The notes under the pieces: generated by a model
Databases searched by the model: none
Told to the model about the DNA's origin: nothing
What the model saw: the letters and a program-made list of their open reading frames with translations, nothing else
Translations under genes and position numbers: made by a program
In this document: one piece after another, positions 35,390-52,498 of the stretch
Position numbering within the stretch: the first letter of the stretch is position 1
Layout: the number at the start of each line of letters is the position of its first letter
Assembly: GCF_014279755.1 (NCBI RefSeq)
Contig: NZ_CP047951.1
Coordinates: forward strand, 186,001 to 250,000
From: Synechococcus sp. PROS-U-1
GTDB lineage: Bacteria; Cyanobacteriota; Cyanobacteriia; PCC-6307; Cyanobiaceae
DNA length: 64,000 nucleotides
Direction: 5' to 3'

Positions 35390-36525
35390 TCCACCCCGGG
35401 GAGCCGGCCGCGGCTGAGTTGCAGCTTGGGATCGAATTGGCGTTTCACCGCTTCGATCAGCGATCGGGAGGGCCGGTCAACCCAAGCTGGCATGGTCGAT
35501 CTAGCGGTGCGTTTTAACAGCGTCATTTCGCCGCCGAGGCGACTCACGCTGCGGCGCAGTGCTTGCAGCTGGTGATCCGGTGTCGCTGCATCGCACCAGC
35601 CATCACCACAGCCGGCTCCGGCGGCCAGCTCCCAGCACCACGACTTCAGGGCCGTCATGGCCTCGTCCTGCAACAACTCCTGCAATTGGGCCGGCGGCAG
35701 CACCAGCCGCAGCAGCTGCGCCGAGGGGCTGGCATCGATGGGGGTGGTCAGGGGATCAGCGCAAGCCTGCCGTTCTGTACTGAGCGGCTGGTTCAGCGCC
35801 AACGTTTCGAGCCGCAGCAGCTGGTCTTCCACCGCCTGGTCCGACACGCTGCTCACCACAAGCCGCAGCCGCCAGGAGCCATCGCCGCTGTTGATCCAGT
35901 CACAGCGTTCTGGGGTCAGGCTGGAGCGCAGAACTGCATTGCGGAAGTCGTCTTGCGCGGCGAGGTCTCCATCCACGAGCAGGCTGCTTCGGGCAGAGCG
36001 CACCGGCTGCAGCCGCAGGGTGAGTTCGGTGATCAGTGCCAGGCTTCCCCAGCTGCCGCAGAGCAGCCGCATCAGGTCGTAGCCCGCCACGTTTTTCACC
36101 ACCCGTCCACCGGCTCGGGCTTCGACGCCATCAGTCCGTAACAGGCCGATCCCGATGATCTGATCGCGCACCCCCAGATGGCGTTGACGCAGTCCCCCCG
36201 CCAGACCCCTGGCCACCAGGCCGCCGATGCTTCCGGGAGCTCCGGCTCGAGGCCAGTCAACCGGCAGCCATTGGCCCTGTTCCGCCAGCAGATCCTGCAG
36301 GTCCTGCAGTGGCAGGCCGGCTTCCACCGTGATGGTCAGATCGTCCACGGCATGGTCGATCACCCGGTTGAGGTGGCGACAGGAGAGCACCTCGTGGCTG
36401 GGATGCAGCGGCGGGCCCCAGTCCAGGCGAGTTCCCAGGCCACTGGGACTCCAGGGTGTGGCGCTCTGATGCCACTGGCGCACCAGGTTGATCAGATCGC
36501 TGCGGTTGGCGGGGGAATGGCTCAC
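35374..36525 (-). CDS. glcE: Glycolate oxidase FAD-binding subunit GlcE
   Basis: A 383-residue FAD-binding oxidoreductase subunit that with GlcD and GlcF oxidises glycolate from photorespiration to glyoxylate. The FAD-binding PCMH domain shows PRAGAPGSIGGLVARGLAGG and GRVVKNVAGYDLMRLLCGSWGSLALI, typical of GlcE. glcD is not in the window and glcF lies 1.3 kb upstream on the same strand, separated by a divergent kinase gene. Its start is 14 nt from the start of that kinase gene on the other strand, so both promoters lie inside coding DNA. Confidence 0.9.
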   Translation of the reverse strand: MSHSPANRSDLINLVRQWHQSATPWSPSGLGTRLDWGPPLHPSHEVLSCRHLNRVIDHAVDDLTITVEAGLPLQDLQDLLAEQGQWLPVDWPRAGAPGSIGGLVARGLAGGLRQRHLGVRDQIIGIGLLRTDGVEARAGGRVVKNVAGYDLMRLLCGSWGSLALITELTLRLQPVRSARSSLLVDGDLAAQDDFRNAVLRSSLTPERCDWINSGDGSWRLRLVVSSVSDQAVEDQLLRLETLALNQPLSTERQACADPLTTPIDASPSAQLLRLVLPPAQLQELLQDEAMTALKSWCWELAAGAGCGDGWCDAATPDHQLQALRRSVSRLGGEMTLLKRTARSTMPAWVDRPSRSLIEAVKRQFDPKLQLSRGRLPGVDQETL

Positions 36526-36539
36526 GGCACGATGGTGCC

Positions 36540-37886
36540 ATGAAGGTTGTGGTCATTGACGACGATCCCACCGGCTCACAGACGGTGCACAGCTGTCCGC
36601 TCTTGTTGCGGTGGGATGTCGACACCCTGCGCCGGGGGCTGCGCCATGCGTCGCCGTTGTTGTTTCTGCTGGCGGACACGCGGGCGCTGACGCCAGAGGA
36701 TGCAGCCGAACGCAACCGCAGCATTGCCGCTGCGTTGGACCAGGCGTTGCAGCGGGAGGGGTTGGCGCGTGACCAGGTGCTGTTGGTCAGTCGTGGCGAT
36801 TCCACCCTGCGCGGCCATGGGGTGGTGGAACCGGAGGCCCTGCAGGCATCCTTCGGCCCCTTTGATGCCACTTTTCATGTGCCGGCTTTTCTGGAAGGGG
36901 GTCGCACCACCGTGAATGGGGTGCATCTCCTCCACGGCGAACCGGTGCACACCACGCCGTTTGCTCAGGACCGGCTGTTTGGTTTCAGCAGCAGTGATCT
37001 GGCCTGCTGGCTGGAGGAGAAAAGCGATGGGGCCATTGCCGCGGCTTCGGTGCAGCGGATGTCTGGCCGGGAGCTCGATGCCTCCTGTGGTGCGGGCTTG
37101 CCGCTGTTGATCAATCGCCTCCGTTCTCTTCAGGCCAATGCATCGGTGGTGGTGGATGCCGAGCGTCAGGAGCAGCTCAACGCTTTGGCCGCAGCGGTGC
37201 GCGCCCTCCAGGGGAAGAAACGGTTTCTGTTCCGCTCCGCCGCCAGCATGGTCAAGGCGCTGGCGGATCCAGGCCCGCCGCCGTTCGATCCCAAGGGCTT
37301 GGCGGCGTTGCGGAGACGGGCTGACGACGGCACATCCCAACCGGGACTTGTGATGGTGGGCTCCCATGTGCCCTTGGCGGATCAGCAGCTGGAGAAGCTG
37401 CTGGCGGAACCGGGGTGCCAAGGGGTTGAGCTGCCAGTGCATCGCATCGCTCGGGTGCTGGAGGGACCAACGCCCGATCTGCTGCTGACGGATCTGGAGC
37501 GGGTCTGGCTGAAGCAGCTGCGAGCGGTGCTCGAGGCTGACGCCACACCGGTGCTGTTCAGCAGCCGCGGTGAGCTGCGCTGTGCCTCGGAGCGGGAGGG
37601 CCGGCAGTTGTCTTGCGCTTTGGCGGAGTTGATGGGACGACTGGCAGCTGCCCTCACCCCAGATTTGGGTTATTTGATCAGCAAAGGCGGCATCACCACC
37701 CAGACGCTGTTGGCCCGAGGCCTGGCCCTTCAGTCGGTGCAGTTGGAAGGTCAGCTGCTGCCTGGGCTGTCGCTGGTGAGGCCGTCAGCGGGGCCCTGCC
37801 GTGGCCTGCCGATTCTCACCTTTCCCGGCAATCTCGGCACTGCTGACACTTTGCGGGACGCCTGGCAGCGGATGGAGGCCGGCTGA
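36540..37886 (+). CDS. Four-carbon acid sugar kinase family protein
   Basis: A 448-residue protein of the D-threonate/D-erythronate kinase family (formerly DUF1537). The N-terminal domain begins VVIDDDPTGSQTVH, with SRGDSTLRGH and VPAFLEGGRTTVNG as the substrate site. The C-terminal ATP-binding domain has LVMVGSHVPLADQQ and LISKGGITTQTLL. Characterised members phosphorylate C4 sugar acids for breakdown, normally beside a dehydrogenase and aldolase or decarboxylase; none is here. Instead it stands between glcE and glcF, on the other strand, starting 14 nt from glcE and overlapping the end of glcF by 102 nt. A role in salvage of sugar acids formed in photosynthesis is speculative. Confidence 0.85.
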   Translation: MKVVVIDDDPTGSQTVHSCPLLLRWDVDTLRRGLRHASPLLFLLADTRALTPEDAAERNRSIAAALDQALQREGLARDQVLLVSRGDSTLRGHGVVEPEALQASFGPFDATFHVPAFLEGGRTTVNGVHLLHGEPVHTTPFAQDRLFGFSSSDLACWLEEKSDGAIAAASVQRMSGRELDASCGAGLPLLINRLRSLQANASVVVDAERQEQLNALAAAVRALQGKKRFLFRSAASMVKALADPGPPPFDPKGLAALRRRADDGTSQPGLVMVGSHVPLADQQLEKLLAEPGCQGVELPVHRIARVLEGPTPDLLLTDLERVWLKQLRAVLEADATPVLFSSRGELRCASEREGRQLSCALAELMGRLAAALTPDLGYLISKGGITTQTLLARGLALQSVQLEGQLLPGLSLVRPSAGPCRGLPILTFPGNLGTADTLRDAWQRMEAG

Positions 37887-39143
37887 GGCTGCCAGCAGTT
37901 CCATTGGGTGCTGCACTCGGGCGCAATCGCCCAGGTGCCGCCGCAGTTGCAGGGTGCAACCGATGTTGGCGCTCGCTACGAATGCAGCGCCGGTACCGCT
38001 GAGGTCATCGGCTTTGATTCGGCCCAGTTCGGCGGCTTCCTCGTACTGCACAAGGTTGTAGATGCCGGCACTGCCGCAGCAGACCCCAGCCTCGGTCGCC
38101 TCCCGGAGTTGGATGTCGGGGATGGCCCGCAACAGCTGGCGGGGCTGGGAATGGATTCCCTGGCCGTGAATCATGTGGCAGGCGTCGTGCATGGCCACGA
38201 TCCCGGGAAGAGGTTGCAATTGCGTGCGGAACGTCTCCAGGAGGCCGCGGTCAGCCAGGAACTCCTGCACATCCAGCACCGGCGCACGGAATTGGATGTC
38301 GCCGTTCAGCAGCTCGCCGTAGGCCTTCATTGTGTGGCCGCAGCCGGAGGCGGCCACTAACACTGCATCCAGATCTCCCTCAATAGCGTTCATGCTTCGC
38401 ACCAGGTCGGCCGCAAGTTGGCGGGTGAGTTCCAGCTCTCCTTGGTGATGGCTCACGGCACCGCAGCAGCCCTGCTCCTGTGGAATCACCACCTCGAAGC
38501 CGTTGGCCTGCAGCACCTTGACTGTTGCCGTGCTCACGCTGGGATCGAAGCAGCGCTGTACGCAGCCCAGCAGCAGCGCTACGCGGCCGCGGCGTTCAGC
38601 TTTGGCGGGGTTGATCAGAGGCAACTGATCGCTGAAGGCCTCCGCTGCCAGGGGCGGCAGCAACCTCTCCATCGCTTCGATCTCAGGGCCAAACAAACGG
38701 GTGAGCCCTGTGCGGCGGGCCAGGGCCTGGAGCGGTGTACCGGTGTAGGCCCGCAAGGGTTGCAGCAGGGCTCGCAGGCGACCTGGATAGGGAAGTACCT
38801 GCAACAGCAACTGGCGGAAGCTGGTCTGCCAGGCGCTGCGTTGCCCGGCATTGATCAGTTTTGGACGGGTGGCCTCGATCAGCTGGTCGTAGCGCACCCC
38901 CGAAGGGCAAGCGGAGACGCAGGCGAAGCAGCCCAGGCAGGTGTCGAAATGGCTCGCCACCGTGGCATCCAGTTCCAGTTCACCGGCTTCGATCGCCCGC
39001 AGTGCATGGATGCGGCCGCGGGGGGAGTCCATCTCACTGGCCAGCACGCGATAGCTGGCACAGGTGGGCAAGCAGAAGCCGCAGTGCACGCAGGGGTCCG
39101 CGGCGCCAGGCGGTAGACCAGGAAGCTGGGTGGGAGAGGCCAT
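37785..39143 (-). CDS. glcF: Glycolate oxidase iron-sulfur subunit GlcF
   Basis: The electron-transfer subunit of glycolate dehydrogenase, 452 residues. Two [4Fe-4S] motifs, CVHCGFCLPTC near 18 and CLGCFACVSACP near 69, are followed by two CCG (heterodisulfide-reductase-like) domains seen in EQGCCGAVSHHQGE and AGVCCGSAGIYN. The last 30 residues (after LHPLPG) look like an unconserved extension that lies over the 3' end of the acid-sugar kinase gene. It is 34 nt downstream of icd's stop on the same strand. Confidence 0.94.
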   Translation of the reverse strand: MASPTQLPGLPPGAADPCVHCGFCLPTCASYRVLASEMDSPRGRIHALRAIEAGELELDATVASHFDTCLGCFACVSACPSGVRYDQLIEATRPKLINAGQRSAWQTSFRQLLLQVLPYPGRLRALLQPLRAYTGTPLQALARRTGLTRLFGPEIEAMERLLPPLAAEAFSDQLPLINPAKAERRGRVALLLGCVQRCFDPSVSTATVKVLQANGFEVVIPQEQGCCGAVSHHQGELELTRQLAADLVRSMNAIEGDLDAVLVAASGCGHTMKAYGELLNGDIQFRAPVLDVQEFLADRGLLETFRTQLQPLPGIVAMHDACHMIHGQGIHSQPRQLLRAIPDIQLREATEAGVCCGSAGIYNLVQYEEAAELGRIKADDLSGTGAAFVASANIGCTLQLRRHLGDCARVQHPMELLAASAGLHPLPGVPQSVSSAEIAGKGENRQATAGPR

Positions 39144-39177
39144 CGCCTGAGTCTGGCGTGAATGGCAGCTCTCGTGA

Positions 39178-40602
<1,425 letters not shown>

Positions 40603-40684
40603 GGCGGTTGGTCGGGCGTCAGCAGGCCGAGCCTATGACCGAGCCGGGAGCCCTACGGTTCACTGCAGTGCAGACCACTCATTG

Positions 40685-41635
40685 ATGGCCAGCGAGCAGG
40701 TATGGGTGGTGGCGGCCTGCTTCAACGAAGAGGCGGTGATCACCCGCTTCATCGAACGGGTTCTGGCCCTGCCGGAGGTGGACCGTCTCCTCCTCGTTGA
40801 TGACGGCTCGTCCGATGCCACGGTTGCGGTGATTCGTGCCTGCCAGCAGAGCCATGCCGATCAGAGCGTCACGCTGCTGGAGCTCACCCGAAATTTCGGA
40901 AAAGAGGCGGCAATGCTGGCGGGGCTCGACCATGCCAATGGACGCTGTGCTGCTGCGGTGCTGATCGATTCCGACCTGCAGCACCCTCCGGAGCGGATTC
41001 CCGCGATGGTGCAGGCCTGGCGAAATGGCGCTGAGGTGGTCACGGCGGTGCGGGATGACCGGGATGCCGAAGGATTGGTGAAGGTGGCCACCGCGTCTTG
41101 GTTTTATCGAGTGTTCAACCGCCTGGTGGATTCGATCCAGCTTCAGGAGGGGGCTGGCGACTTCCGTTTACTGAGTGCACAGGTGGTGGAGGCGGTGACC
41201 CAGTTGCGTGAGGCCACGCGCTTTTCCAAGGGGTTGATGCCCTGGACCGGTTATCGCAGCGAGGAGATCGCCTACAGCCGCGTAGCCCGCGTTGGAGGAA
41301 GCACGTCCTGGAGCTCCCTCAAGCTCTGGCGCTATGCCCTGGACGGCATCTTTTCGTTCACGGTGAAGCCGTTAAAGGTTTGGGGCGTGATCGGTGTTCT
41401 GATTTCGTTCCTGAGCTTCATCTATGCCGCACTGATCGTGCTGCGCACCTTGGTCTTTGGTGTCGACTTGCCGGGCTATGCCTCATTGATCGTGGCTGTT
41501 CTGTTCCTGGGGGGGATTCAGTTGATTGGTATCGGTGTTTTGGGCGAATACATCGGCCGGATCTACATCGATGTGAAACGACGGCCGCATTATTTCGTCA
41601 GAGCCGTGCACCAGAGTTCAGAGCTGTTGCGCTGA
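40685..41635 (+). CDS. GT2 glycosyltransferase, GtrB/DPM1-like, with C-terminal membrane helices
   Basis: A 316-residue inverting glycosyltransferase of family 2, likely attaching a sugar to a polyprenyl phosphate at the inner face of the membrane. The nucleotide-sugar fold shows VVAACFNEE, LLVDDGSSDAT near 40 and the metal motif DSDLQHPPE near 99. Two membrane helices follow at about 233-255 and 262-290 and the usual GEYIGRIYIDVKRRPHYFV tail. ATG 40685. Its last 18 nt overlap the convergent GtrA-YdjC fusion, the kind of flippase partner GtrB proteins need. Confidence 0.92.
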   Translation: MASEQVWVVAACFNEEAVITRFIERVLALPEVDRLLLVDDGSSDATVAVIRACQQSHADQSVTLLELTRNFGKEAAMLAGLDHANGRCAAAVLIDSDLQHPPERIPAMVQAWRNGAEVVTAVRDDRDAEGLVKVATASWFYRVFNRLVDSIQLQEGAGDFRLLSAQVVEAVTQLREATRFSKGLMPWTGYRSEEIAYSRVARVGGSTSWSSLKLWRYALDGIFSFTVKPLKVWGVIGVLISFLSFIYAALIVLRTLVFGVDLPGYASLIVAVLFLGGIQLIGIGVLGEYIGRIYIDVKRRPHYFVRAVHQSSELLR

Positions 41636-42832
41636 CGACCACTCTTTTTGGCGGTTGGTGGCACTGAAAAAGGCCACGGACTGCTGAAAGGCGTCCTGAT
41701 CCATGCCCGATACGGCATGGCGGCGGGCTGGATGAATCAGAACAAGGGGCCTTGACGCGCGACGGACCTTGCCAGGGCTGTGGGCGGTGATCCAGCTACG
41801 ACGCAATGCCTTGCCGAACATCGATCCACTGAACAACACGCCGGCAAAGCGACGGTTGGTTTGAATCCCGGCTCGGCGCAGTCGGGGCATGGCCAGCCCG
41901 CTCAGCAGCTGCAGCACAAACCATTTGATCAGGCCCCCTGTCTGCAGGCTTCGCCACCAGAGCGCCAGAGTCAGGCCCTCGGGCAGGGGTTCCCGTGTCG
42001 TACGCACCCAGGTGATTGATTCGGAACGGGCCAAATCCAGCACCGCATCCAGCACGAGAGGAACGAGGTGGATGTGCTGGTGGCCATCGAGGCGGATCTG
42101 CCGCAGCCCGGTGAGCTGGCGGTAGCGGCTGATCTGCTCCAGCAGAACTGTGCGCAGCTGGGGTGCGATGCGTCGGCGCTGCCAGGGCAGGATCGAGGCC
42201 AGCAGCAAGGTGCCGAATCCGGTTGGCAGATCTGGACAGTTGTGCAGCCGATGCCCTTCGGTGAGGCAGAGGTGAAGGGTGAGCGGCGGTGGCTCAGCAA
42301 GCCTGCGCCAGGTTTCGACAGCGTCGCTTGCACTTGGGCCATTCACCAGCAGGCTGGCTCCCTGGAGCCGCCCGCTGCGGGCGAGATCGACAATCGCTGC
42401 ATCAACGCCGGCCGCCAGCCCGAGGTCGTCGGCATGGAGCAGCGGTGGTTGGCCGTTGTGTTGCTGGCGGCTCCTTGCACTAAACCGGGCCGCGCGGCTC
42501 CAGATCAGGGCATTCAGCACCGTGGGTGTGAACACCAGCACCAATGTCGGGGCTTTGAGAAGCGGCAGCAGGGCGCAGACGCTGATGTTGACGACGTACT
42601 GCAGCAGCAACCAGCGACGGGCGAACTGGCGACCACCGGTCTCTTCCCGGAAGGTCAGCAGGGCGTGGCCGAGATACCCCGCCACGGAGGCGGCCAGGAA
42701 GGCGATGGGATTGGCCAGGCTGAGGGCCATCCACTGGCCGAGCAGCAGCAGCACGCCGAAGTGCACGGCCGCGGCGGTTCCTCCCACCACGCCATACCGC
42801 AGCAAGCGGTTCAGCAGAGCAATTATGCGCAT
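41618..42832 (-). CDS. GtrA-like flippase fused to YdjC/ChbG-type deacetylase domain
   Basis: A 404-residue two-domain protein. Residues 1-115 form a four-helix GtrA-type membrane domain (LLRYGVVGGTAAAVHFGVLL; FLAASVAGYLGHALLTFRE), associated with translocation of polyprenyl-linked sugars. Residues 130-400 form a YdjC/ChbG-type carbohydrate deacetylase domain with the metal-site motifs HADDLG (133-138), LHLCLTEGH (186-194) and LDGHQHIHL (248-256). The fusion is in one frame without a break. ATG 42832 overlaps the nucleosidase gene by 10 nt; an upstream ATG at 42853 is possible. The two activities could modify and flip the same lipid-linked sugar. Confidence 0.85.
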   Translation of the reverse strand: MRIIALLNRLLRYGVVGGTAAAVHFGVLLLLGQWMALSLANPIAFLAASVAGYLGHALLTFREETGGRQFARRWLLLQYVVNISVCALLPLLKAPTLVLVFTPTVLNALIWSRAARFSARSRQQHNGQPPLLHADDLGLAAGVDAAIVDLARSGRLQGASLLVNGPSASDAVETWRRLAEPPPLTLHLCLTEGHRLHNCPDLPTGFGTLLLASILPWQRRRIAPQLRTVLLEQISRYRQLTGLRQIRLDGHQHIHLVPLVLDAVLDLARSESITWVRTTREPLPEGLTLALWWRSLQTGGLIKWFVLQLLSGLAMPRLRRAGIQTNRRFAGVLFSGSMFGKALRRSWITAHSPGKVRRASRPLVLIHPARRHAVSGMDQDAFQQSVAFFSATNRQKEWSSAQQL

Positions 42833-43578
42833 CGTTGGGGAGTCTCGTTGCACCGCTGCAGCAGGGCCTCAATCAGCCGCCAGGCCTGTTTTTCGTAGCG
42901 TTTGACGAAGTCTTCGAAGCTTTGGGCTGCCGCTTCGTCGGCACCATCGGAAATCACCCGCAGAACCAGCCAGGGGACGCCCTCTTGCTCGGCCACTTGC
43001 GCGACGGCAGCACCTTCCATTTCAACGGCCCGCAGATCGGGAAGGGCGTCCCGCAACGATTGCAGCACCGTGGGATCGCCGATGAAGCGATCCCCTGTGG
43101 CGATCAGACCGCTGATTGGACAGGCAAATCCCTCCAGATCGCCAGCTCCGTGTGCCTCCAGGAGTGCGGCCTTGGCCCAGTTGAACCAGGCCGGCTGTGG
43201 TTGGAGTCGGTCCTGATTCAGGGCTGGCAGGGTGAACCGTGGGAACAGGGGGCGAGCATCCATGTCGTGCTGCAACACCGCATCGGCCAACACCACATCC
43301 CATTGACGCAGGGCTGGATCTGCAGCGCCTGCGACACCGGTGAACAACAGCAGATCAATGCTGGGATCGCTGGCGAGCAGGCGTGTGGCGGCCCGCGCAG
43401 CGCTCACCTTGCCCCAGCCGCTCCAGGCGAGGCTGAGGCGGACCTTCTCACTCCAAGATCCCCGATGGATCTTGAGGTCTCCGTGTTCGCTGCAGCTCAG
43501 CTCTTTGAGGTGGCTGAGATCGGAGCCGATCTCCTCCGGCATCGCGCCAAGCAGGGCAATGTGCAGCGGTTGCGTCAT
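42823..43578 (-). CDS. mtnN: 5'-methylthioadenosine/S-adenosylhomocysteine nucleosidase
   Basis: Cleaves the N-glycosidic bond of MTA or SAH, recycling products of SAM-dependent reactions. The 251-residue protein has the general motif AMPEEI near 12-17, the FTGVAGA block, the substrate-binding VEMEGAAVAQVA (E188) and catalytic D211 in ISDGAD. It is a little divergent from E. coli Pfs, so a futalosine-type or other purine nucleosidase cannot be fully excluded. Its 3' end overlaps the GtrA-YdjC start. Confidence 0.85.
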   Translation of the reverse strand: MTQPLHIALLGAMPEEIGSDLSHLKELSCSEHGDLKIHRGSWSEKVRLSLAWSGWGKVSAARAATRLLASDPSIDLLLFTGVAGAADPALRQWDVVLADAVLQHDMDARPLFPRFTLPALNQDRLQPQPAWFNWAKAALLEAHGAGDLEGFACPISGLIATGDRFIGDPTVLQSLRDALPDLRAVEMEGAAVAQVAEQEGVPWLVLRVISDGADEAAAQSFEDFVKRYEKQAWRLIEALLQRCNETPQRCA

Positions 43579-43655
43579 GGTTTCTTAAACCTCGGGCAAC
43601 CGTAACGGCGACCTCTTGCATCTCCCTGCACACTGTGCGGAAGTCGGAGGTTTAA

Positions 43656-44099
43656 GTGAACGCGGGCGAGTCGGTACAGAGCGTGGCCCGGGTGCGTGCA
43701 CTGGCCTCCACGATCACGCTGGTGCGTCACCAGTTTCCGGCTGCGCAGGCCAATCTCAGTCCCTGGCGAGACGATCCGCAGACCCGTCAATGGAGTGAGG
43801 AAGAATCGCTGGATCTGTCGTTTCACTTCCCCGGCTGGAGCCCACGCTTGGAATGCCGCAGTTTGCTGATGCAGCTGCATATCAGTGCTGAGCGAGGTGA
43901 TGAACAGCTGCGTCTGCTGGGAGTGTTAATGCGGGGCATGACCTATGACGGCGAACGTTGGCGCCTCGCCACGGTTGGTGAATGGTTGCCGGAAGGTCCT
44001 CATTTGCCTCAGCAGCAGCAGGTGAAGCAGCTTCAGCAGATCTGTCGCGAGCTGTTTGAGTTGTTCGATGCAAATGCTGCGTCCGATACAGCGGCGTAA
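43656..44099 (+). CDS. Conserved-type hypothetical protein upstream of heme oxygenase
   Basis: A 147-residue soluble protein of mixed alpha/beta character, with a central LDLSFHFPGWSPRLECRSLLMQLH segment and a helical Gln-rich end. No catalytic motif is recognised. The GTG start at 43656 is supported by GGAGG five nt upstream. It is 75 nt upstream of ho1 on the same strand; the LSFHFPGWSPR style resembles small cyanobacterial unknowns, but I cannot name a family. Confidence 0.72.
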   Translation: MNAGESVQSVARVRALASTITLVRHQFPAAQANLSPWRDDPQTRQWSEEESLDLSFHFPGWSPRLECRSLLMQLHISAERGDEQLRLLGVLMRGMTYDGERWRLATVGEWLPEGPHLPQQQQVKQLQQICRELFELFDANAASDTAA

Positions 44100-44138
44100 C
44101 CCTTCGCAACGCTCAAGACCACGCTTCCGTGGACTGCT

Positions 44139-44144
44139 TATAGG
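44139..44144 (+). promoter_or_regulatory. Possible -10 element for ho1
   Basis: TATAGG lies 31 nt before the ho1 ATG, just after a small CCACG-CTTC-CGTGG hairpin (44119-44132). No clear -35 box is placed 16-18 nt upstream. Offered as the best promoter candidate in this 75-nt gap only. Confidence 0.3.
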
Positions 44145-44174
44145 GTCCTCCTATCGGTCCAATCACAAGCATTC

Positions 44175-44888
44175 ATGTCCGTTGCACTGGCTGCCCAGAT
44201 CCGTGAAGGCACGAAAAAGTCTCACACCATGGCCGAAAACACCGGCTTCGTGAGCTGCTTCCTTAAAGGTGTCGTCGACAAAGCCAGCTATCGCAAGCTT
44301 GTTGCAGACCTCTACTTCGTCTACGAGGCGATGGAAGAGGAGATCGACAAGTTGGGCGATCACCCGGTTGTCGGACCCATTGGCAAGAAAGAGCTCAACC
44401 GTCGCGAATCTCTCGAGCAAGACCTCACCTATTACTTCGGTGATGGTTGGAAAGAGCAGATTCAGCCGTCTCCGTCTGCAGCGATGTACGTCGAACGGAT
44501 TCATGCCGTCGCGAAAGAGTCCCCTGAGCTTCTGGTCGGGCATCACTACACCCGCTACCTGGGTGATCTGTCTGGTGGTCAGATCCTCAAGAACATTGCT
44601 CAGAAGGCGATGAACATGGATGGCGACGATGGACTTCGGTTCTACGTCTTCGATGACATTGCTGATGAGAAGGCGTTCAAGACCAACTACCGCGCTGCCA
44701 TGGATAGTCTCCCGATCGATCAGGCCACGGCCGATCGCATCGTTGAGGAAGCCAACCATGCCTTCCACTTGAACATGAACATGTTCAAGGAGTTGGAAGG
44801 CAACCTTGTTGCCGCGATTGGCAAAGTCTTGTTCGGTTTCCTGACGCGGCGTCAGCGGGCGGGCAGTACAGAGGCCGCCGCCGCTTGA
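44175..44888 (+). CDS. ho1: Heme oxygenase (biliverdin-forming)
   Basis: Opens heme with O2 and ferredoxin electrons to biliverdin IX-alpha, precursor of the phycobilin antenna pigments. The 237-residue, all-helical protein has the proximal heme ligand H17 in KKSHTMAE and the distal-helix block RYLGDLSGGQILKNIAQ. Length and ends are those of cyanobacterial HO1. It is followed 10 nt later by a glycosyltransferase gene in the same direction, so read-through into the glycan genes is possible. Confidence 0.96.
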   Translation: MSVALAAQIREGTKKSHTMAENTGFVSCFLKGVVDKASYRKLVADLYFVYEAMEEEIDKLGDHPVVGPIGKKELNRRESLEQDLTYYFGDGWKEQIQPSPSAAMYVERIHAVAKESPELLVGHHYTRYLGDLSGGQILKNIAQKAMNMDGDDGLRFYVFDDIADEKAFKTNYRAAMDSLPIDQATADRIVEEANHAFHLNMNMFKELEGNLVAAIGKVLFGFLTRRQRAGSTEAAAA

Positions 44889-44898
44889 GTTCTCGCTG

Positions 44899-45936
44899 GT
44901 GCCCACCGAACTGATTCGTTTCCTGGTCCCCGGGACCAGCCGTCGCTTTCGATGTGGTGGGCTTAGCGTTGAGTTGCAGACCGCAAATCTGGTTGGACGT
45001 TGCTGTCCGACCGAGATCGTGACGTACCGCGAGCGTTGTCACGATCACCCATTTCTGGCCGACCTCTTACAGCGTGAATCCGTTCGCGATGAGGTGATTT
45101 GGATTGTGAGCTGGGGGTTCGATGTTCCTCGGCTCATCCACCGTTTGCGAGGTCATCGCGTGGCCTATCACGCCCACAGCAGCGGCTATGGATTTGACCT
45201 CCCACGAGGGGTTCCTGTGTTGGCGGTGAGTCGGAACACGTTGGGCTACTGGGGGGATCGAGCACCCCGCAATCCGCTCTATCTCGTGCCCAATGCCCTG
45301 GAACCCCAGTGGATGGATCGGGGTGATCATTTGGGCTCAGGCTCACGTTCCATTGATGTCCTTGTCCAAGCGCGCAAGAGCAGCCCTTATGTGTTGAATC
45401 AGCTGGTGCCAGCGTTGCGGCAAGCCGGCCTTGTGGTGGAGGTTCAGGCTGGCTGGGTGGATGACTTGGTCGATCTGTTCAATCGCTCCACGGTGTACCT
45501 CTACGACTCAGCCGAGTACTGGCGTGGACGCAGAGTGACCGAAGGTTTCGGGTTGCCACCGCTGGAGGCTCTGGCCTGCGGTTGCGTTGTGTTCAGCAGC
45601 CTGAACCATGCCCTGGCCGACTACGGCGACCCAGGTCGCACCATGCATCAGATCGGTTGTGGCCGGCTGACGTTCGATCTGGAACGGATCAAGAGTGCCG
45701 TTGATGCTCCCCAGCGCTGGCGACCCTCAGTCGATCGTTTGGAGGCTCTGCTGCAGGAGTGTTCAGAAACTGTGCTGCTTGAGCGCTGGCGCGATGCCTT
45801 CGCTCACCTGGATGTGCTGGAGGCTTCATCGGGAACGCACCTAAGCAGTCTTCCCACATGGCGATTGCGGCTTCAGCAGGTGGTCTCTCGGCTTCAGCGA
45901 GTGGTCAATCGGTTGCCCGGCTGGCCGAAGGGATAA
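44899..45936 (+). CDS. Glycosyltransferase (GT-B fold, GT4-like)
   Basis: A 345-residue protein of the GT-B fold. The N-terminal half is poorly conserved; the C-terminal half has the retaining-transferase pattern EGFGLPPLEALACGCVVFSS near 213-232 (E-x7-E). Preceding segments RSIDVLVQARKSSPYVL and VYLYDSAEYWRGRRVTEGF fit sugar-nucleotide binding. The start is GTG 44899. It opens the plus-strand glycan run, 82 nt before the ABC transporter; that gap shows nothing beyond AT-richness. Donor and acceptor are unknown. Confidence 0.82.
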   Translation: MPTELIRFLVPGTSRRFRCGGLSVELQTANLVGRCCPTEIVTYRERCHDHPFLADLLQRESVRDEVIWIVSWGFDVPRLIHRLRGHRVAYHAHSSGYGFDLPRGVPVLAVSRNTLGYWGDRAPRNPLYLVPNALEPQWMDRGDHLGSGSRSIDVLVQARKSSPYVLNQLVPALRQAGLVVEVQAGWVDDLVDLFNRSTVYLYDSAEYWRGRRVTEGFGLPPLEALACGCVVFSSLNHALADYGDPGRTMHQIGCGRLTFDLERIKSAVDAPQRWRPSVDRLEALLQECSETVLLERWRDAFAHLDVLEASSGTHLSSLPTWRLRLQQVVSRLQRVVNRLPGWPKG

Positions 45937-46018
45937 ATCCATCTCCCACAATCACGGCCTAAGTTCCTGAAATGGACTGCCAGGGCTTGAATCAGACCAA
46001 AGTTCTGCATGTTGGAAC

Positions 46019-47836
46019 ATGTTGATGCGGAGCAGAACCCTCACTGATCTAGCGGTTCTGTTGAATCAATTGCCGCGGCGGCGTCTGCGGCTCATGGGCG
46101 TCGTTCTTGTTGCGTCCTTTCTTCAAGGCTTGCTCGACATGCTGTTGGTGGGCCTGATGGCTCGCATGGTCGGTTTGCTTGCGGGAGTGAAGCTGCAGGA
46201 TCAAATCCCAGGGATTCGCGTGTTTGGTGGATCGTTGTTGGATCAAGCGGGTTGGCTGATTGGTCTCCTGATTGCAGCCTTTTGGTTCACCTCCATCATT
46301 CGTTTTGGTGTTTCGCTGATGCAGAGCATGCTCAGCGCTGAAATTTGGAATGATTTGGTGAATAGGGTTTATGCCAACTTGATGCGGCAAAACTATGCTT
46401 TTTTTACAGAAAATAGAACAGCAAATCTCTCCGAAAGTTTTAATCGTGTTCTGAATCGTATTTCGACGGCAGTCATCAGTCCCCTGATTACCATTGCGGG
46501 AAATTTGCTGTCTGTTGTCGTTCTTCTTGTCGGCGTCAACATCATTCTTGGCTGGAAGGCTTTGTTGATGTTTGCTTTGATGCTGATGGCCTATGTGATG
46601 TCGTCGCGTTTAATTACGCCCTATTTGCGTCTGGGTACAAAGCAGCGTGTTCGATATACCAGGCGCATCAATATGATTCTGATGGAATCACTTCGCTCGA
46701 TGCGTGATGTTCAGCTTTACTCGGCAGATCAATATTTCACGTCTCGTTTCTCGCGTGATGGTGTGATCGCCAAGCGCTACGACCGTTTGACGCGATTGCT
46801 CCCCGATGTTCCGCGATATGTGATTGAACCTGTGGCCGTCACGGTGCTTTTCGCCATTGGTGTCGGCCCTTCTCTGATGGCAGGTGATATGGAGAGTGTT
46901 CGCGAGAGTTTGCCGCTGATTTCGGTGATTTTGGTGACTCTTCTGCGGATTTCCGGCCCGCTTCAGTCAATGTTCCGGAGCGTTAACAAGCTTCGTGGCG
47001 GGTTGCCGGAAATTCAGGATGCCCTTGACCTCTTGCAGCTGAAGCCGGAACGCCTCACCTTGCAGAGTCCGGGTGTTCCCTCCCCCAGTGGAGTGACCCC
47101 TCGCAGATTGATTCAGCTGGACAATGTTGGCTTCACTTATGCAGGGCGCGATCAGCCTGTTCTCCAGGCGATCAATCTGTCGATTCCTGTTGGCTCCCGG
47201 ATTGCACTGGTGGGTCGCACGGGTAGCGGGAAAACAACGCTGGCCCACATCATTCTTGGTCTCTATACCCCCAGTTCGGGTGAGCTTTGCCTTGATGGAA
47301 TTCCCATCACGGCTGAGGAAATGCCTGCTTGGCAGGCCAACTGTGCCTTGGTTCCGCAAGACATCCGTTTGCTTGATACGAGTGTTCGCGAGAACATCGC
47401 CTTTGGTCAATCCGGTGATGAGATTGAAGATGATGAGGTTTGGAATGCTTTGGCCGCGGCTCAGTTTGATGATGTTGTGAGTCAAATGCCTTATGGGCTT
47501 TACACCATGATTGGAGAGAATGGTGTCAAATTGTCAGGTGGGCAGCGGCAGAGATTGTCTTTGGCACGCGCTTTTTATCGCAAGGCAAGTGTTTTGATTC
47601 TGGATGAAGCGACGAGCGCATTGGATAACAAAACTGAGCACGAAGTGATGCAGGCTCTGGACATCATTGGTCGACGTTGCACCACGATCGTGATTGCTCA
47701 TCGGTTGTCGACGGTCCGAAAGTGTGACCAGGTGTTTGAAGTTGGTGACGGTCGGATCAAGGCCTCCGGCAGCTTTGAAGATCTCGTCAAAATCTCAGAC
47801 AGCTTCCGCGAGATGAATCAGCTGGAATCAACTTGA
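46019..47836 (+). CDS. ABC exporter, fused permease-ATPase (lipid or lipid-linked glycan flippase type)
   Basis: A 605-residue half-transporter. The N-terminal 330 residues hold about six membrane helices; the ATPase domain has Walker A GRTGSGKTT near 398, signature LSGGQRQR near 504, Walker B VLILDEATSAL near 524 and switch His in IVIAHRLSTVR. It resembles MsbA and PglK exporters. Its place in a run of glycosyltransferases suggests it flips a lipid-linked glycan; this is inference. The gene is visibly richer in A/T, with T-runs and AT-ending codons, than its neighbours, a possible sign of transfer. Confidence 0.9.
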   Translation: MLMRSRTLTDLAVLLNQLPRRRLRLMGVVLVASFLQGLLDMLLVGLMARMVGLLAGVKLQDQIPGIRVFGGSLLDQAGWLIGLLIAAFWFTSIIRFGVSLMQSMLSAEIWNDLVNRVYANLMRQNYAFFTENRTANLSESFNRVLNRISTAVISPLITIAGNLLSVVVLLVGVNIILGWKALLMFALMLMAYVMSSRLITPYLRLGTKQRVRYTRRINMILMESLRSMRDVQLYSADQYFTSRFSRDGVIAKRYDRLTRLLPDVPRYVIEPVAVTVLFAIGVGPSLMAGDMESVRESLPLISVILVTLLRISGPLQSMFRSVNKLRGGLPEIQDALDLLQLKPERLTLQSPGVPSPSGVTPRRLIQLDNVGFTYAGRDQPVLQAINLSIPVGSRIALVGRTGSGKTTLAHIILGLYTPSSGELCLDGIPITAEEMPAWQANCALVPQDIRLLDTSVRENIAFGQSGDEIEDDEVWNALAAAQFDDVVSQMPYGLYTMIGENGVKLSGGQRQRLSLARAFYRKASVLILDEATSALDNKTEHEVMQALDIIGRRCTTIVIAHRLSTVRKCDQVFEVGDGRIKASGSFEDLVKISDSFREMNQLEST

Positions 47837-47842
47837 TCATCG

Positions 47843-50098
47843 ATGGCTGATTTCGTTGTCTTGGCAACGGCGGATTGGGATCACCGCCTGTGGACCAACA
47901 AGCAGCACACAGCCCTTTCGTTGCAGCGGGCTGGGCACCGTGTGTTGTACATCGAGTCGTTGGGGTTGCGCCCCCCGCGTGCCGATAGGCAGGACAGTCA
48001 GCGGATCGTCAAGCGACTGAGGCGGATGTTCCGGCCGCCGCGCCAGGTCGAGCCAGGGTTATGGGTGTGGTCACCGATGGTGATACCCGGTGGGACGCGC
48101 GGTGTTCTGCTTCATATCAACCGAGTGTTGTTCAGCAGTGCTCTGGGTTGGATTCTCAGGGGTCTTCGCTTTCGTTCACCACTGCTGTGGACCTACAACC
48201 CGCTCACCGGTCGCTATCTGAATCTGAAACGACGTGCAGGAACGTCGAAGCCATCGATGTTTTCTGCTGCCGTTTATCACTGTGTTGATCGCATCCATGC
48301 TCAACCAGGCATGCCCGCGACGTTGATTGCCGACAGCGAGCGTCAGCTCTGTCGCACGGTGAATGTGGTGTTCACCACGTCTCCCGATCTTCAGGCGTCG
48401 CTGATGCGAATCAATGCCTGCACTTACCACTACGGCAATGTTGCCGATCAGGCACATTTTGCTGCCGCTTTGGATGCTCTGCCCGCTCCCGATGGCCTTG
48501 CAGGTATCCCTAAGCCTCGCCTGATGTTTGTTGGTGCGATCGATGCCTACAAGCTCGATCTGCCCATGCTGACGGCCTTGGCCCGTCAACGGTCCGATTG
48601 GTCGTGGGTTCTTTTGGGTCCCGTTGGCGAGGCCGATCCGGACACGAGCATTGCGGCGCTTCAGGCTTTGCCGAATGTGCACGTCATGGGTCTGCAGGCC
48701 TATGACGATCTGCCGGCATGGCTCGCGCACGCCGATGTGGCTCTGCTGCCCCTGCAGGAGAACACCTACACGCAGCACATGTTCCCGATGAAGTTCTTCG
48801 AATATCTCGCTGCGGGGCGCCCCGTGGTGGCCACCCAGATTCCTGCTTTGCGGCCCTACGCCTCCGGGGCGTTGCTTTGTCCTCCGGATCCGGAGGCATT
48901 TGAAGCTGCCATCGCGACGGCATTATCGGGCGATGGTCCATCGCTGGATCAGCGCTTGGCGCTGGCCGCAGAACACACCTACGAGAGCCGTACGCAGAAG
49001 ATGCTGCATGACCTGCAACGGGATGGACTGTTGGACGCGGCGTCCAGCGGTCAGTCGATGCTGCGTCTCCAAGGCCGAACCTGGCCGTTGCAGCGGGTGT
49101 TGATGCCTGCCTTGTTCCGTTCGGTGCGGTTGCGCAATCGTTGCGGGCGCAGCGAAGCAGGCCGGCAACTGTTGCGCTGGATCGATGGGCATCATCCCGT
49201 TGAGCCGCAGGTGCTCGATGCGCAGATTCCCCGCTTGATCAAAAGGGGTCTGTACTCAGAGGCCTTGGCACTAATGGAGCGCTCATGGTTGGAGCTCGGC
49301 CGCACCGATCACCTCCATCATTTGTTGTTTCGGCGTGGTGCCAGACCCAAGGCCTTGCAGGAGCAGATCTCGCTGTTCGAGACCCTGGGTGCCAGTTCCC
49401 GCTTGCCCCTCAGCTATCGCGCCTATTGCAGGGTGGTGTGTGCCTACCGATCTGCTGAACTCAACGACCCTCAGCTGATGCGCGCTTCCATTGCAGCTTT
49501 GGATGCAGTTGCCACAGGGTTGGAAGACGATCCCAACACACGCCTGTGTCGCCAGGGGAATCGCTTCAACCGAGCCAAACTTCTGATCTCCTGTTACGCC
49601 ACCACGCTGCGGCTTCAGCTCACCTTGGCAGATCGGGACGGGGCCGCGAGCCTCGGCAGACGTGGGTTGCAGTTTAGTGAATCCCTCGATCTCACCATGA
49701 TCGAAACAGAAACCTCCTTCCGGCTCACTCGCAATCTGATGCGGGTGCTGTCGATCAACATTGTTGAGGCATGGGCCTCATCCGATGCCACTCTTTACTG
49801 GCGGGCGAGACGGGCCTTGCAGGCCGTTCATGACCATGCGCATCGACCGGAGCATGACGAACGAGAAGTGCAGGAAGACCATCGTGCGTTTGCGGTGCAG
49901 GTGATGGAGCGTGTCGTACTGATGGATCCCGCACTCGCTGATGCGGATGCGATGGGTCGTGCCGTCGAAGATCTGATGCTGTTGCTGTTCCGCGCCAAGA
50001 TCGTGAGTGAGGCCTGGCGGGCGGAGCGGCTGCCTGGGGTTTTGCCCTGTTTCAAGAGATTCCTGCACCCCGACCAAGGGAATCCGGGCACGTCATGA
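47843..50098 (+). CDS. Large glycosyltransferase with C-terminal helical-repeat domain
   Basis: A 751-residue protein. Residues 1-395 are a GT-B glycosyltransferase: WDHRLWTNKQHTALSLQRAGHRVLYIESLG at the start is typical of a GT4 subgroup, and PMKFFEYLAAGRPVVATQIPAL near 316 is the donor-binding end. Residues 400-750 are an unrecognised helical region with several TPR-like helix pairs (e.g. RLIKRGLYSEALALMERSWLEL) and no second catalytic motif. It starts 7 nt after the ABC gene and overlaps the next start by 4 nt (ATGA). The C-terminal part may dock other enzymes of the cluster. Confidence 0.83.
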   Translation: MADFVVLATADWDHRLWTNKQHTALSLQRAGHRVLYIESLGLRPPRADRQDSQRIVKRLRRMFRPPRQVEPGLWVWSPMVIPGGTRGVLLHINRVLFSSALGWILRGLRFRSPLLWTYNPLTGRYLNLKRRAGTSKPSMFSAAVYHCVDRIHAQPGMPATLIADSERQLCRTVNVVFTTSPDLQASLMRINACTYHYGNVADQAHFAAALDALPAPDGLAGIPKPRLMFVGAIDAYKLDLPMLTALARQRSDWSWVLLGPVGEADPDTSIAALQALPNVHVMGLQAYDDLPAWLAHADVALLPLQENTYTQHMFPMKFFEYLAAGRPVVATQIPALRPYASGALLCPPDPEAFEAAIATALSGDGPSLDQRLALAAEHTYESRTQKMLHDLQRDGLLDAASSGQSMLRLQGRTWPLQRVLMPALFRSVRLRNRCGRSEAGRQLLRWIDGHHPVEPQVLDAQIPRLIKRGLYSEALALMERSWLELGRTDHLHHLLFRRGARPKALQEQISLFETLGASSRLPLSYRAYCRVVCAYRSAELNDPQLMRASIAALDAVATGLEDDPNTRLCRQGNRFNRAKLLISCYATTLRLQLTLADRDGAASLGRRGLQFSESLDLTMIETETSFRLTRNLMRVLSINIVEAWASSDATLYWRARRALQAVHDHAHRPEHDEREVQEDHRAFAVQVMERVVLMDPALADADAMGRAVEDLMLLLFRAKIVSEAWRAERLPGVLPCFKRFLHPDQGNPGTS

Positions 50099-51249
50099 CC
50101 CGGAGGGTCGTGTTGTACATCGATTCACTCAAGACCGGTGGAGCCGAGCGCGTCACGCTTCTGTTCGCCCGCTGGCTTGCTCAGGAAGGGTGGCGGGCCA
50201 CGGTGCTCACCCGCCACGGTCCATCCCGAGACTTTTATCCCGTCCCGGCGGGAGTGCATCGGGCCATTGAGCCGTCAGATCCGCCCTGGTTGCGCTGTCT
50301 TGGGCTACTTGGTTTTCCGCTTCGCGTGCTGCGTCTGCGGGCATGGCTGCAGCGTCATCAACCCGATTTGGTCCTGGGCATGACCACCCTGCCCGCGATC
50401 AAGCTGCTGCTGGCGGTGCGGGGCATGGCGTGTCCATGCATCGTGTCGGAACGAAACTTCCCACCCTTGAAACGGCCCGGTTGGCCCTGGCGGCTTCTGC
50501 GGCGGCTCACCTATCCATGGGCCCATCTGCATTTGGTTCAGACCGAATCCACGGGCCGTTGGCTGGCCCAGCACTTGAACGCCCGACCTCAGCTATGTCT
50601 GGCCAACCCCGTGGCCTGGCCTCTGCCGAGGTTTGCGCCTGACCCTGACCCCACCGATTGGCTGGCGCGCCAGAAGGTCGGGGCCGACCAGCAGGTGCTC
50701 CTTGCGGTGGGAACCAAAGCCCATCAAAAGGGCTTTGATCGATTGGTCGCCATGTTTGCGCTGTTGAGGGAGCGGCATCCCCAGGTGCATCTTGTGATTC
50801 TTGGCATGGATGCAGTGCCGTATCACGGTGTGGATCAGCAGGCCCAGTTGCGTCGGATGCTGCCGCAGGCATCGCATTCCTTGCACTTTCCAGGGCGGGT
50901 GGGCAATGTGCAGGATTGGTACGAGCGGGCCGATCTGTTCCTGCTCCCCTCCCGTTACGAGGGTTTCCCCAACGTGCTGCTTGAAGCCATGGCCAGCGGC
51001 TGTTGTTGTGTCTCCTCCGACTGCCCCCAGGGTCCAGCCGAGTTGATTCGCGATGGCGTCAATGGTCGTTTGTTGCCGAACGATGCCAACCCGCAAACCT
51101 GGGCCGACGTGGTGTCGGCGCTGCTGGTGGATTCAGACGTACGCCGGCGCTTGGCGTGTCGGGCCCTGGAGGTGCGGCAACGCTTTTCCGAGGGACGCTT
51201 GCGTCAGTGTTTCATGAGCGGCGTGTTGCAGCTGGTGAGTGATGACTGA
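50095..51249 (+). CDS. GT4-family glycosyltransferase
   Basis: A 384-residue retaining glycosyltransferase. The N-terminal SLKTGGAERVTLLFARWLAQEGW and the C-terminal LLPSRYEGFPNVLLEAMASGCCCVSSDCPQGP with E-x7-E are classic for GT4. An AVGTKAHQKGFDRLV block marks the start of the donor domain near 203. The ATG overlaps the preceding stop (ATGA) and its stop overlaps the next gene by 8 nt, so the enzymes are probably made together. Confidence 0.92.
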   Translation: MTRRVVLYIDSLKTGGAERVTLLFARWLAQEGWRATVLTRHGPSRDFYPVPAGVHRAIEPSDPPWLRCLGLLGFPLRVLRLRAWLQRHQPDLVLGMTTLPAIKLLLAVRGMACPCIVSERNFPPLKRPGWPWRLLRRLTYPWAHLHLVQTESTGRWLAQHLNARPQLCLANPVAWPLPRFAPDPDPTDWLARQKVGADQQVLLAVGTKAHQKGFDRLVAMFALLRERHPQVHLVILGMDAVPYHGVDQQAQLRRMLPQASHSLHFPGRVGNVQDWYERADLFLLPSRYEGFPNVLLEAMASGCCCVSSDCPQGPAELIRDGVNGRLLPNDANPQTWADVVSALLVDSDVRRRLACRALEVRQRFSEGRLRQCFMSGVLQLVSDD

Positions 51250-52498
51250 AGCGGAGCCAGCTGCAGGCCGTGATGATCTGTGGCTGGTGTTGCCGCATCT
51301 CGGAGCCGGGGGCGCTCAAAAAGTTGCCTTGATTGCCGCCCGTCATTTCGCGGCTCAGGGCTTGAAGGTGAAGCTTGTGACGCTCATCTCAGGGCATCCC
51401 GTGACTCATGCCCTTCCGGATGGGATCCCTCTGCTCGAACTGGGGGCACCGACCCATCGTTCCTGGTGGGCCCGCGGTGGTCGTTTCACCCTGGCGCAGC
51501 TCGACAAGTTGATCCGCTGGTTGTTCCAGCTGCAGCTGCGCTGGTTCGCCGGCTGGTTCCAAGCCCATATCCATCCGGGAGGTCGGGGCCTTGCGATGCA
51601 GCTCTTTCAAGTCGGAACAGAGGCGACGGCTGGCTTGCGTCTCCGCCAACTGCGTCGGCAGTTCCGCCGTCAGCGGCCCCATCGGGTCCTGTCGCTGCTC
51701 ACCCGTACCAACATCATCTGCTGTTGTGCTGCCTGGGATCTGCCGATTCATCTCGTGGTCTCGGAGCGCAACGACCCTTCGCGACAGCTTCTCCCGGAGG
51801 TGTGGCAGCGCATGCGTCCCCTGACCTACCGACGGGCCGATGTCGTGACAGCCAACACGTCGGGTGTTCTCTCAGCTCTGGAATCGATGGGGCCCTGGGA
51901 GAGACTGGCCTTGCTGCCCAATCCATTGCCGAGTGCGCCTGCGCTGGCTGCCGGCGGCGGTGTGTCCAGCCCCAGTGGCTTCATCACCGTGGCCAGGTTG
52001 GTGCCCCAGAAGGGACTGGATGTGTTGATCGCTGCCTTGCCCAGGCTGAGTGGAGCTGCGGCGACTTGGCCCGTCACCTTGGTGGGTGATGGTCCGGAGC
52101 GTGCCGCGTTGGAGCAGCAGGCAAGGGATCTTGGGGTGTCGCGCCGATTGCGAAGCCTGGGGTTCCGTTCTGATCCGGAGCGGTTCCTGGCCGAGGCTGC
52201 CGTTTTCGTGTTGCCCTCCCGTTTTGAAGGCATGCCCAATGCACTGTTGGAGGCCATGGCTGCTGGTCTGGCGGTGATCGTGACGGATGCTTCCCCTGGC
52301 CCCCTGGAGGTGGTTGAGCCTGGGGTGAGCGGTTTGGTGATTCCCAGTGATGATCCGGCTGCACTCGCTAGAGCGATGGACGCGCTGGCTTCAGATCCCG
52401 AGCGTTGCAGGCGGATGGGTGCAGCGGCCAGAACGCGGATTGCTGCGTTGGACTGGCCCCAGTTGGAACCGCTCTGGCGGTCGATCCTGGCGTTGTGA
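51242..52498 (+). CDS. GT4-family glycosyltransferase
   Basis: A 418-residue GT4 enzyme. LVLPHLGAGGAQKVALIAARHFA opens the acceptor domain, VARLVPQKGLDVLIAALPRL the donor domain near 241, and VLPSRFEGMPNALLEAMAAGLAVIVTDASPGP carries the E-x7-E near 322-340. A middle segment (about 75-165) with several arginines and tryptophans is longer than in the preceding gene. I chose ATG 51242 over the adjacent GTG. Overlaps its upstream neighbour by 8 nt and the next gene by 1 nt (TGATG). Confidence 0.92.
   Translation: MTEAEPAAGRDDLWLVLPHLGAGGAQKVALIAARHFAAQGLKVKLVTLISGHPVTHALPDGIPLLELGAPTHRSWWARGGRFTLAQLDKLIRWLFQLQLRWFAGWFQAHIHPGGRGLAMQLFQVGTEATAGLRLRQLRRQFRRQRPHRVLSLLTRTNIICCCAAWDLPIHLVVSERNDPSRQLLPEVWQRMRPLTYRRADVVTANTSGVLSALESMGPWERLALLPNPLPSAPALAAGGGVSSPSGFITVARLVPQKGLDVLIAALPRLSGAAATWPVTLVGDGPERAALEQQARDLGVSRRLRSLGFRSDPERFLAEAAVFVLPSRFEGMPNALLEAMAAGLAVIVTDASPGPLEVVEPGVSGLVIPSDDPAALARAMDALASDPERCRRMGAAARTRIAALDWPQLEPLWRSILAL

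Follow-up and report, generated by a model that had tools for sequence, protein, structure and literature searches.

Why should a predicted flippase of lipid-linked sugars be joined in one chain to a sugar deacetylase? The question is raised by a pair of convergent genes in the stretch of 64,000 nucleotides of Synechococcus sp. PROS-U-1 that was analysed here (the window). It reaches beyond this organism: flippases of single lipid-linked sugars are poorly assigned, and a fusion of GtrA with a deacetylase is a strong pointer to both the flippase and the order of the steps. A sequence-only reading had described an in-frame GtrA-YdjC fusion with its metal motifs, on which a GtrB-like gene converges with an overlap of 18 nt. 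This description is borne out, since both halves of the fusion score above their Pfam cut-offs, the active-site residues are intact and the overlap (41618-41635) indeed measures 18 nt.

The two genes and their domains

The features of the locus, in window coordinates, are as follows.

40685..41635, + strand: GtrB/ArnC-type polyprenyl-phosphate glycosyltransferase (GT2), 316 aa; ATG at 40685, stop ending at 41635; Pfam PF00535
40967..40975, + strand: DXD metal motif of the GT2, D95-S-D97, aligned to GtrB D94/D96
41618..41635, no strand: tail-to-tail overlap of the GT2 and fusion genes, 18 nt, from the gene coordinates
41618..42832, - strand: GtrA-YdjC fusion protein, 404 aa; ATG at 42832, stop at 41618, no internal stops
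42458..42832, - strand: GtrA half with four TM helices (residues about 13-112); Pfam PF04138, AlphaFold2 helices and charge distribution
41636..42439, - strand: YdjC/ChbG-like deacetylase half (residues 132-399); Pfam PF04794; ChbG fold, Z 18.3
42419..42436, - strand: HADDLG, residues 133-138; by alignment, D135/D136 correspond to ChbG D10 (acid/base) and D11 (metal)
42254..42283, - strand: LTLHLCLTEG, with metal ligand H187 aligned to ChbG H61
42065..42091, - strand: LDGHQHIHL, residues 248-256, with H251/H253 aligned to the ChbG H125 region
41729..41734, - strand: H367-P368, by alignment the counterpart of the catalytic ChbG H206

The 316-aa protein matches PF00535 with 99.4 bits and consists of a GT2 domain followed by two C-terminal TM helices, recognizable as hydrophobic segments near the C terminus. 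Its closest solved structure is Synechocystis GtrB, sll0501 (E 3e-86; 141/294 identities, 48%), and ArnC structures come next. The GtrB sites that are essential by mutation, together with the DXD pair, are all kept (12 of the 12 checked: D94, D96, R122, R125, K132, A136, Y140, D157, R200, L212, A216 and R290). With the DXD motif, the acceptor residues R122/R200, the catalytic D157 and the two C-terminal helices, the protein belongs to the GtrB type, and it falls outside the ArnC equivalog NF007986 (159.8 bits vs 529). The closest studied GT2, Synechocystis GtrB, uses UDP-glucose, an acetyl-free donor. T120, S181 and S192 separate GT2s with a deacetylase partner from those without, a weak split that involves five unpaired sequences.

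In the fusion protein, residues 12-103 match GtrA_DPMS_TM with 42.1 bits (cut-off 26.1) over positions 1-91 of the 117 of the profile, and this match together with four TM helices places the N-terminal half in the GtrA family. Residues 132-399 match the YdjC domain with 135 bits (cut-off 29.7). No Pfam family besides these two is found in the chain at E values up to 0.1. The host genome (2.58 Mb, one contig) has no other YdjC domain and only one other GtrA, which is fused to a GT2.

The active site of ChbG is formed by D10, D11, H61, H125 and H206 (PMC9402603). The corresponding D135, D136, H187, H251, H253 and H367 are invariant in 20 aligned fusions with identities down to 58%. The AlphaFold2 model of the fusion (mean pLDDT 72) shows four helices and then a barrel. 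In a structure search with residues 127-404, this barrel matches EF3048 and ChbG with Z 18 over about 228 residues, the range for ChbG, EF3048 and TTHB029 being Z 15-18, and ChbG is the nearest solved relative. The PF04794 match, the catalytic D, D, H, H, H set and the ChbG fold thus make this half a member of the YdjC/ChbG family with a predicted deacetylase activity. Positive charges are found at the N terminus, in loop 2 and after TM4, which suggests an N-in/C-in topology and, therefore, a cytoplasmic location of the deacetylase half.

Distribution, linkage and natural deletions

The full-length fusion occurs in 24 of the 34 genomes of the genus and in 11 genomes from five further genera of the family, 35 in all; relatives in the GTDB collection are from marine Synechococcus and Prochlorococcus MIT 0701. 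A frameshift or assembly artefact, which would have split the chain into two genes, is ruled out because there is no internal stop and the fusion is intact in these 35 genomes. Outside the picocyanobacterial family, the YdjC matches among 386 sampled genomes of the phylum are free-standing. As far as searched, the fusion is confined to one cyanobacterial family; the patterns of the genome-wide scan lay in the GtrA half, so that fusions in other phyla may exist. A phage or plasmid origin was considered and dropped, as the fusion was not found in the phage, plasmid and viral collections. The literature search yielded no paper that pairs GtrA with YdjC.

Association of the domains with random partners was not seen either, for the fusion and the GT2 are kept and lost together. 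They are convergent in 35 of 35 pairs, adjacent or near, which is the linkage of a polyprenyl-phosphate GT2 with a YdjC deacetylase known from NaxD-type systems. The spacing is at most 110 nt in 31 pairs. Within the genus, a GT2 orthologue is present in all 25 genomes that have the fusion or its GtrA half (24 plus G033, described below) and in none of the nine others. The 11 fusion genomes of the other genera likewise all contain it, with 57-76% identity, while GT2 copies in fusion-free genomes are absent or only distant (up to 53%).

Two natural deletions are instructive. In G001 both genes have been removed by one deletion that joins the GT2 start to the GtrA start. In G033 exactly the YdjC domain is lost; the remaining GtrA half is 81% identical and continues, without a change of frame, into the final residues of the fusion, which overlap the GT2 end. 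At both ends the G033 GT2 matches that of the window; in the middle the agreement falls to 9-17 of 20 residues per block (19-20 in siblings), so that the middle looks replaced. In this one genome, the GT2 seems to have changed along with the deacetylase, as would be expected if the GT2 picks the sugar and a deacetylase is needed for an acetylated sugar only. Together with the deacetylase-free relatives G165 and G188, G033 and G001 are useful natural variants.

In most lineages the pair is flanked by icd and the ho1 region; in G315 and G367 it is found elsewhere. In two of the four wider gaps between GT2 and fusion, a gene has been inserted whose 254-aa product is methyltransferase-like (L050:5860-6624 and L051:6394-7158, in sister genomes). 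The same sisters carry sulfotransferase-like genes adjoining icd (L050:2467-3189 and L051:1841-3013). The GT2/fusion junction and the icd side form a small hot spot where glycan-decorating genes are inserted. On the same strand as the fusion, the end of mtnN (5'-methylthioadenosine nucleosidase) overlaps its start at 42823-42832. An operon with mtnN was rejected, as only the genus and one nearby lineage have mtnN upstream, and the pair occurs without it in deeper lineages. An Rfam search of positions 36000-48000 of the window gave no RNA elements.

DUF2079 as candidate final transferase

A pathway that loads and flips a lipid-linked sugar also needs an enzyme that transfers it, and such a gene is not present at the locus. 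The sequence-only reading of a three-step unit of loading, deacetylation and flipping is for this reason incomplete, although linkage, co-loss, catalytic residues and topology agree with the three steps themselves. GT-C genes adjoin GtrA or GtrB genes in four other genomes, though not in the window genome. In G165 and G188, from genera without the fusion, a GT2, a DUF2079 gene and a separate convergent GtrA stand in a row free of a deacetylase, which is a plain three-part Gtr system. In G367 the pair is flanked by two DUF2079 genes, and in G315 a PMT/ArnT-family GT-C gene precedes the fusion.

DUF2079 is found in 24 of 27 fusion genomes against 4 of 18 others (Fisher p 1.6e-5, with phylogeny only partly corrected), and within the genus in 15/16 against 0/3. 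The exceptions are G031, G315 and G328, which have the fusion without a DUF2079 orthologue, and G190, which has DUF2079 without the fusion. In a Foldseek search with the predicted model of DUF2079 (pLDDT 83), the top match was ArnT with undecaprenyl phosphate (5f15, E 4e-5), for which a second comparison gave Z 19.8 over 405 residues, and the remaining high-probability solved matches are GT-C enzymes. On this model, DUF2079 is a GT-C protein of the ArnT/PMT fold. By association, the orthologue of the window genome (G000:C1:2248808-2250253), situated among other GT-C genes 2 Mb from the pair, is most likely the final transferase, and a candidate function is thereby suggested for the DUF2079 family.

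Other candidates were discarded. The PMT_2 proteins of the window genome gave one weak match to the ArnT-like protein of G315 (31% identity, E 4.8e-6). A membrane protein of 612-620 aa next to icd, considered as a fourth component, has no Pfam match and does not occur in the window genome; this polytopic protein is encoded at L057:1283-3124, L059:1342-3183, L077:11741-13603 and L079:11694-13532. The cluster G000:C1:2236977-2251755, which encodes the GT2-GtrA fusion (376 aa), three PMT-like and two DUF2079 proteins, is a second, separate Gtr-like system.

The probable pathway, its rivals and its precedents

The gene structure, the protein families, the conserved active sites, the linkage and joint loss of the genes and the GT-C fold seen in the partner can be brought together in one scheme, which we regard as probable: a Gtr-type lipid-sugar pathway with the deacetylase built into the flippase and with DUF2079 as the probable last step. 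The GT2 would transfer a HexNAc, presumably GlcNAc or GalNAc, from UDP onto polyprenyl phosphate at the cytoplasmic face. The cytoplasmic YdjC half, with a single metal ion, would then take off the acetyl group from the lipid-linked sugar to give polyprenyl-P-hexosamine with a free amine, and the GtrA half of the same chain would move this product to the periplasmic leaflet. Finally, an ArnT-fold GT-C enzyme, most likely DUF2079, would put the amino sugar on an outer glycan or on lipid A. Several points count against the pathway: convergent genes are not co-transcribed, Synechocystis GtrB takes a sugar that has no acetyl group, and DUF2079 lies 2 Mb off in the window genome.

In the window, 44899-54470 (+) is a surface-glycan cluster; besides five group-1/4 glycosyltransferases it encodes an ABC exporter (46019-47836) and a sulfotransferase (53436-54470). 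The presence of these genes nearby makes a surface glycan a likely target; lipid A is a possible one. The LPS of marine Synechococcus lacks Kdo, heptose and lipid A phosphate, glucosamine is minor, and the review of this LPS reports no added cationic sugar (PMC4515613), a further point against the pathway. The pathway looks like a compact route by which the cell surface would receive positively charged amino sugars. It is a testable one, in very abundant marine phototrophs, and bears on their contact with phages and grazers. It could further be imagined, tentatively and with more doubt than confidence, that in picocyanobacteria GtrA accepts and flips only the sugar lipid freshly deacetylated by its own YdjC half, with DUF2079 as ArnT-like final transferase. 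If true, such coupling would unite a flippase and a sugar-modifying enzyme in one chain, as a flippase with its own quality control.

Since GtrA-like domains can be no more than the TM portion of a DPMS-type synthase, a part that PF04138 also covers according to its Pfam name, flipping by GtrA is something we infer. The GtrA half could instead serve just to anchor or dock the deacetylase at the membrane, close to the lipid-linked sugar, while another protein does the flipping. The fusion of the other GtrA of the same genome to a GT2 would fit this, as would the match to only positions 1-91 of the 117 in the profile. All four of the four TM helices are predicted, however, and G033 has retained its GtrA half without the deacetylase, where an anchor would not be needed. 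In G165 and G188, moreover, a free-standing GtrA takes the same place, and the anchor seems on the whole unlikely.

The remaining rivals concern the deacetylase and its product, and all of them are far less probable. Least credible is an HpnK-like enzyme of hopanoid side-chain synthesis: HpnK (TIGR03473) is the best NCBIfam model for the fusion, but its 79 bits are far under the cut-off of 232.6. Among the solo cyanobacterial YdjC genes that were examined, the majority, including that of G225 within the picocyanobacterial family, adjoin genes that we take, by sequence resemblance, to be HpnJ- and squalene-synthase-like, and these solo copies therefore look HpnK-like. The fusion has no such neighbours; it is surrounded by icd, mtnN and ho1 and not by hopanoid genes. 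In the tree, a branch with 100/99 support separates the fused YdjC domains from the groups of solo cyanobacterial and of Melainabacteria-like copies. Also very improbable is a ChbG-like role in the breakdown of chitin, in which the enzyme would deacetylate a soluble sugar and its membrane part would be incidental. ChbG is indeed the closest solved relative, and some marine picocyanobacteria encode a chitinase (PMC11851481), but the score against the ChbG equivalog NF002559 (60.3 bits) stays below the cut-off of 227, a polyprenyl-phosphate glycosyltransferase is always paired and co-lost with the fusion, and a chb-like cluster was never seen around it. Hardly more convincing is a free amino-sugar glycolipid as product, such as the GlcN-phosphatidylglycerol of Pseudomonas gpgSDF, without a role as GT-C donor. 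That system shares the logic of synthase, deacetylase and flippase (PMC12713373), but GpgS is a family-4 glycosyltransferase and GpgF a YbhN-type protein, whereas the GT2 here is of the GtrB/ArnC type with a conserved polyprenyl-phosphate site, and an ArnT-fold GT-C protein, DUF2079, is linked to the pair.

The preferred pathway, with the deacetylase built into the flippase, is reminiscent of several known systems. The proposed comparison with ArnC-ArnD-ArnEF holds in part. The order of loading, deprotection, flipping and, with ArnT, transfer is shared, but "different folds" applies to the deacetylase family and the flippase and not to the GT2, which is homologous to ArnC, or to DUF2079, which has the ArnT fold. 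The Arn pathway uses a NodB/CE4-type deformylase, ArnD, and an EmrE-type pair, ArnEF; the fusion protein is neither, and it carries YdjC and GtrA in one chain. In the GtrA-GtrB-Gtr O-antigen systems, and with Synechocystis GtrB, a GtrB-type transferase likewise works with GtrA and a GT-C enzyme, but an unmodified sugar such as glucose is moved, whereas GtrA here bears a deacetylase. Closer precedents than Arn are NaxD, Lgm and a Brucella gene set. FlmK is a member of the FlmF2-NaxD-FlmK pathway; in Bordetella, transferase and deacetylase roles are assigned to single Lgm proteins, and we know of no fusion in lgm.

In Francisella and Acinetobacter, the ArnC-like GT2 FlmF2 acts with the YdjC-superfamily deacetylase NaxD in adding galactosamine to lipid A (PMC11279074, PMC8149597), and NaxD deacetylates undecaprenyl-P-GalNAc before transfer (PMC11279074). 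NaxD is a separate protein without a GtrA fusion, and the lipid A phosphate is absent in marine Synechococcus (PMC4515613). Bordetella lgmABCD brings about a glucosamine modification of lipid A, for which lgmA, lgmB and lgmC are required and lgmD is not essential (PMC4993483). For Brucella, the likeness is drawn from the annotation in a gene table, where BAB2_0132-0135, with consecutive locus tags, appear under polysaccharide biosynthesis/modification as gtrA, the glycosyltransferase wcaA, a chbG/YdjC deacetylase and arnT, that is, as separate genes with the GT-C enzyme within the set (PMC10746212). The order of the steps is thus already known from separate genes, in the Brucella set by annotation. 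What is new is the presence of both domains in one chain, the range within a single family as far as searched, the co-presence and co-loss with the GT2, and the link to DUF2079.

Some further arrangements of these domains came to light. Two IMG/VR viral contigs (L165:4001-4480 and L166:4001-4480) contain a YdjC-like domain with 32-33% identity to that of the fusion, and the match includes no GtrA. Another type of GtrA fusion, to DUF6311 (717 aa), is encoded downstream of a GT2 on plasmid pHM1 of Rhizobium sp. SSA_523 (L164:4947-7100). In the Melainabacteria-like genome G133 (L124:3502-5364), a free-standing YdjC gene lies next to a GT2 gene in divergent orientation; the two may form a related unit that lacks the fusion.
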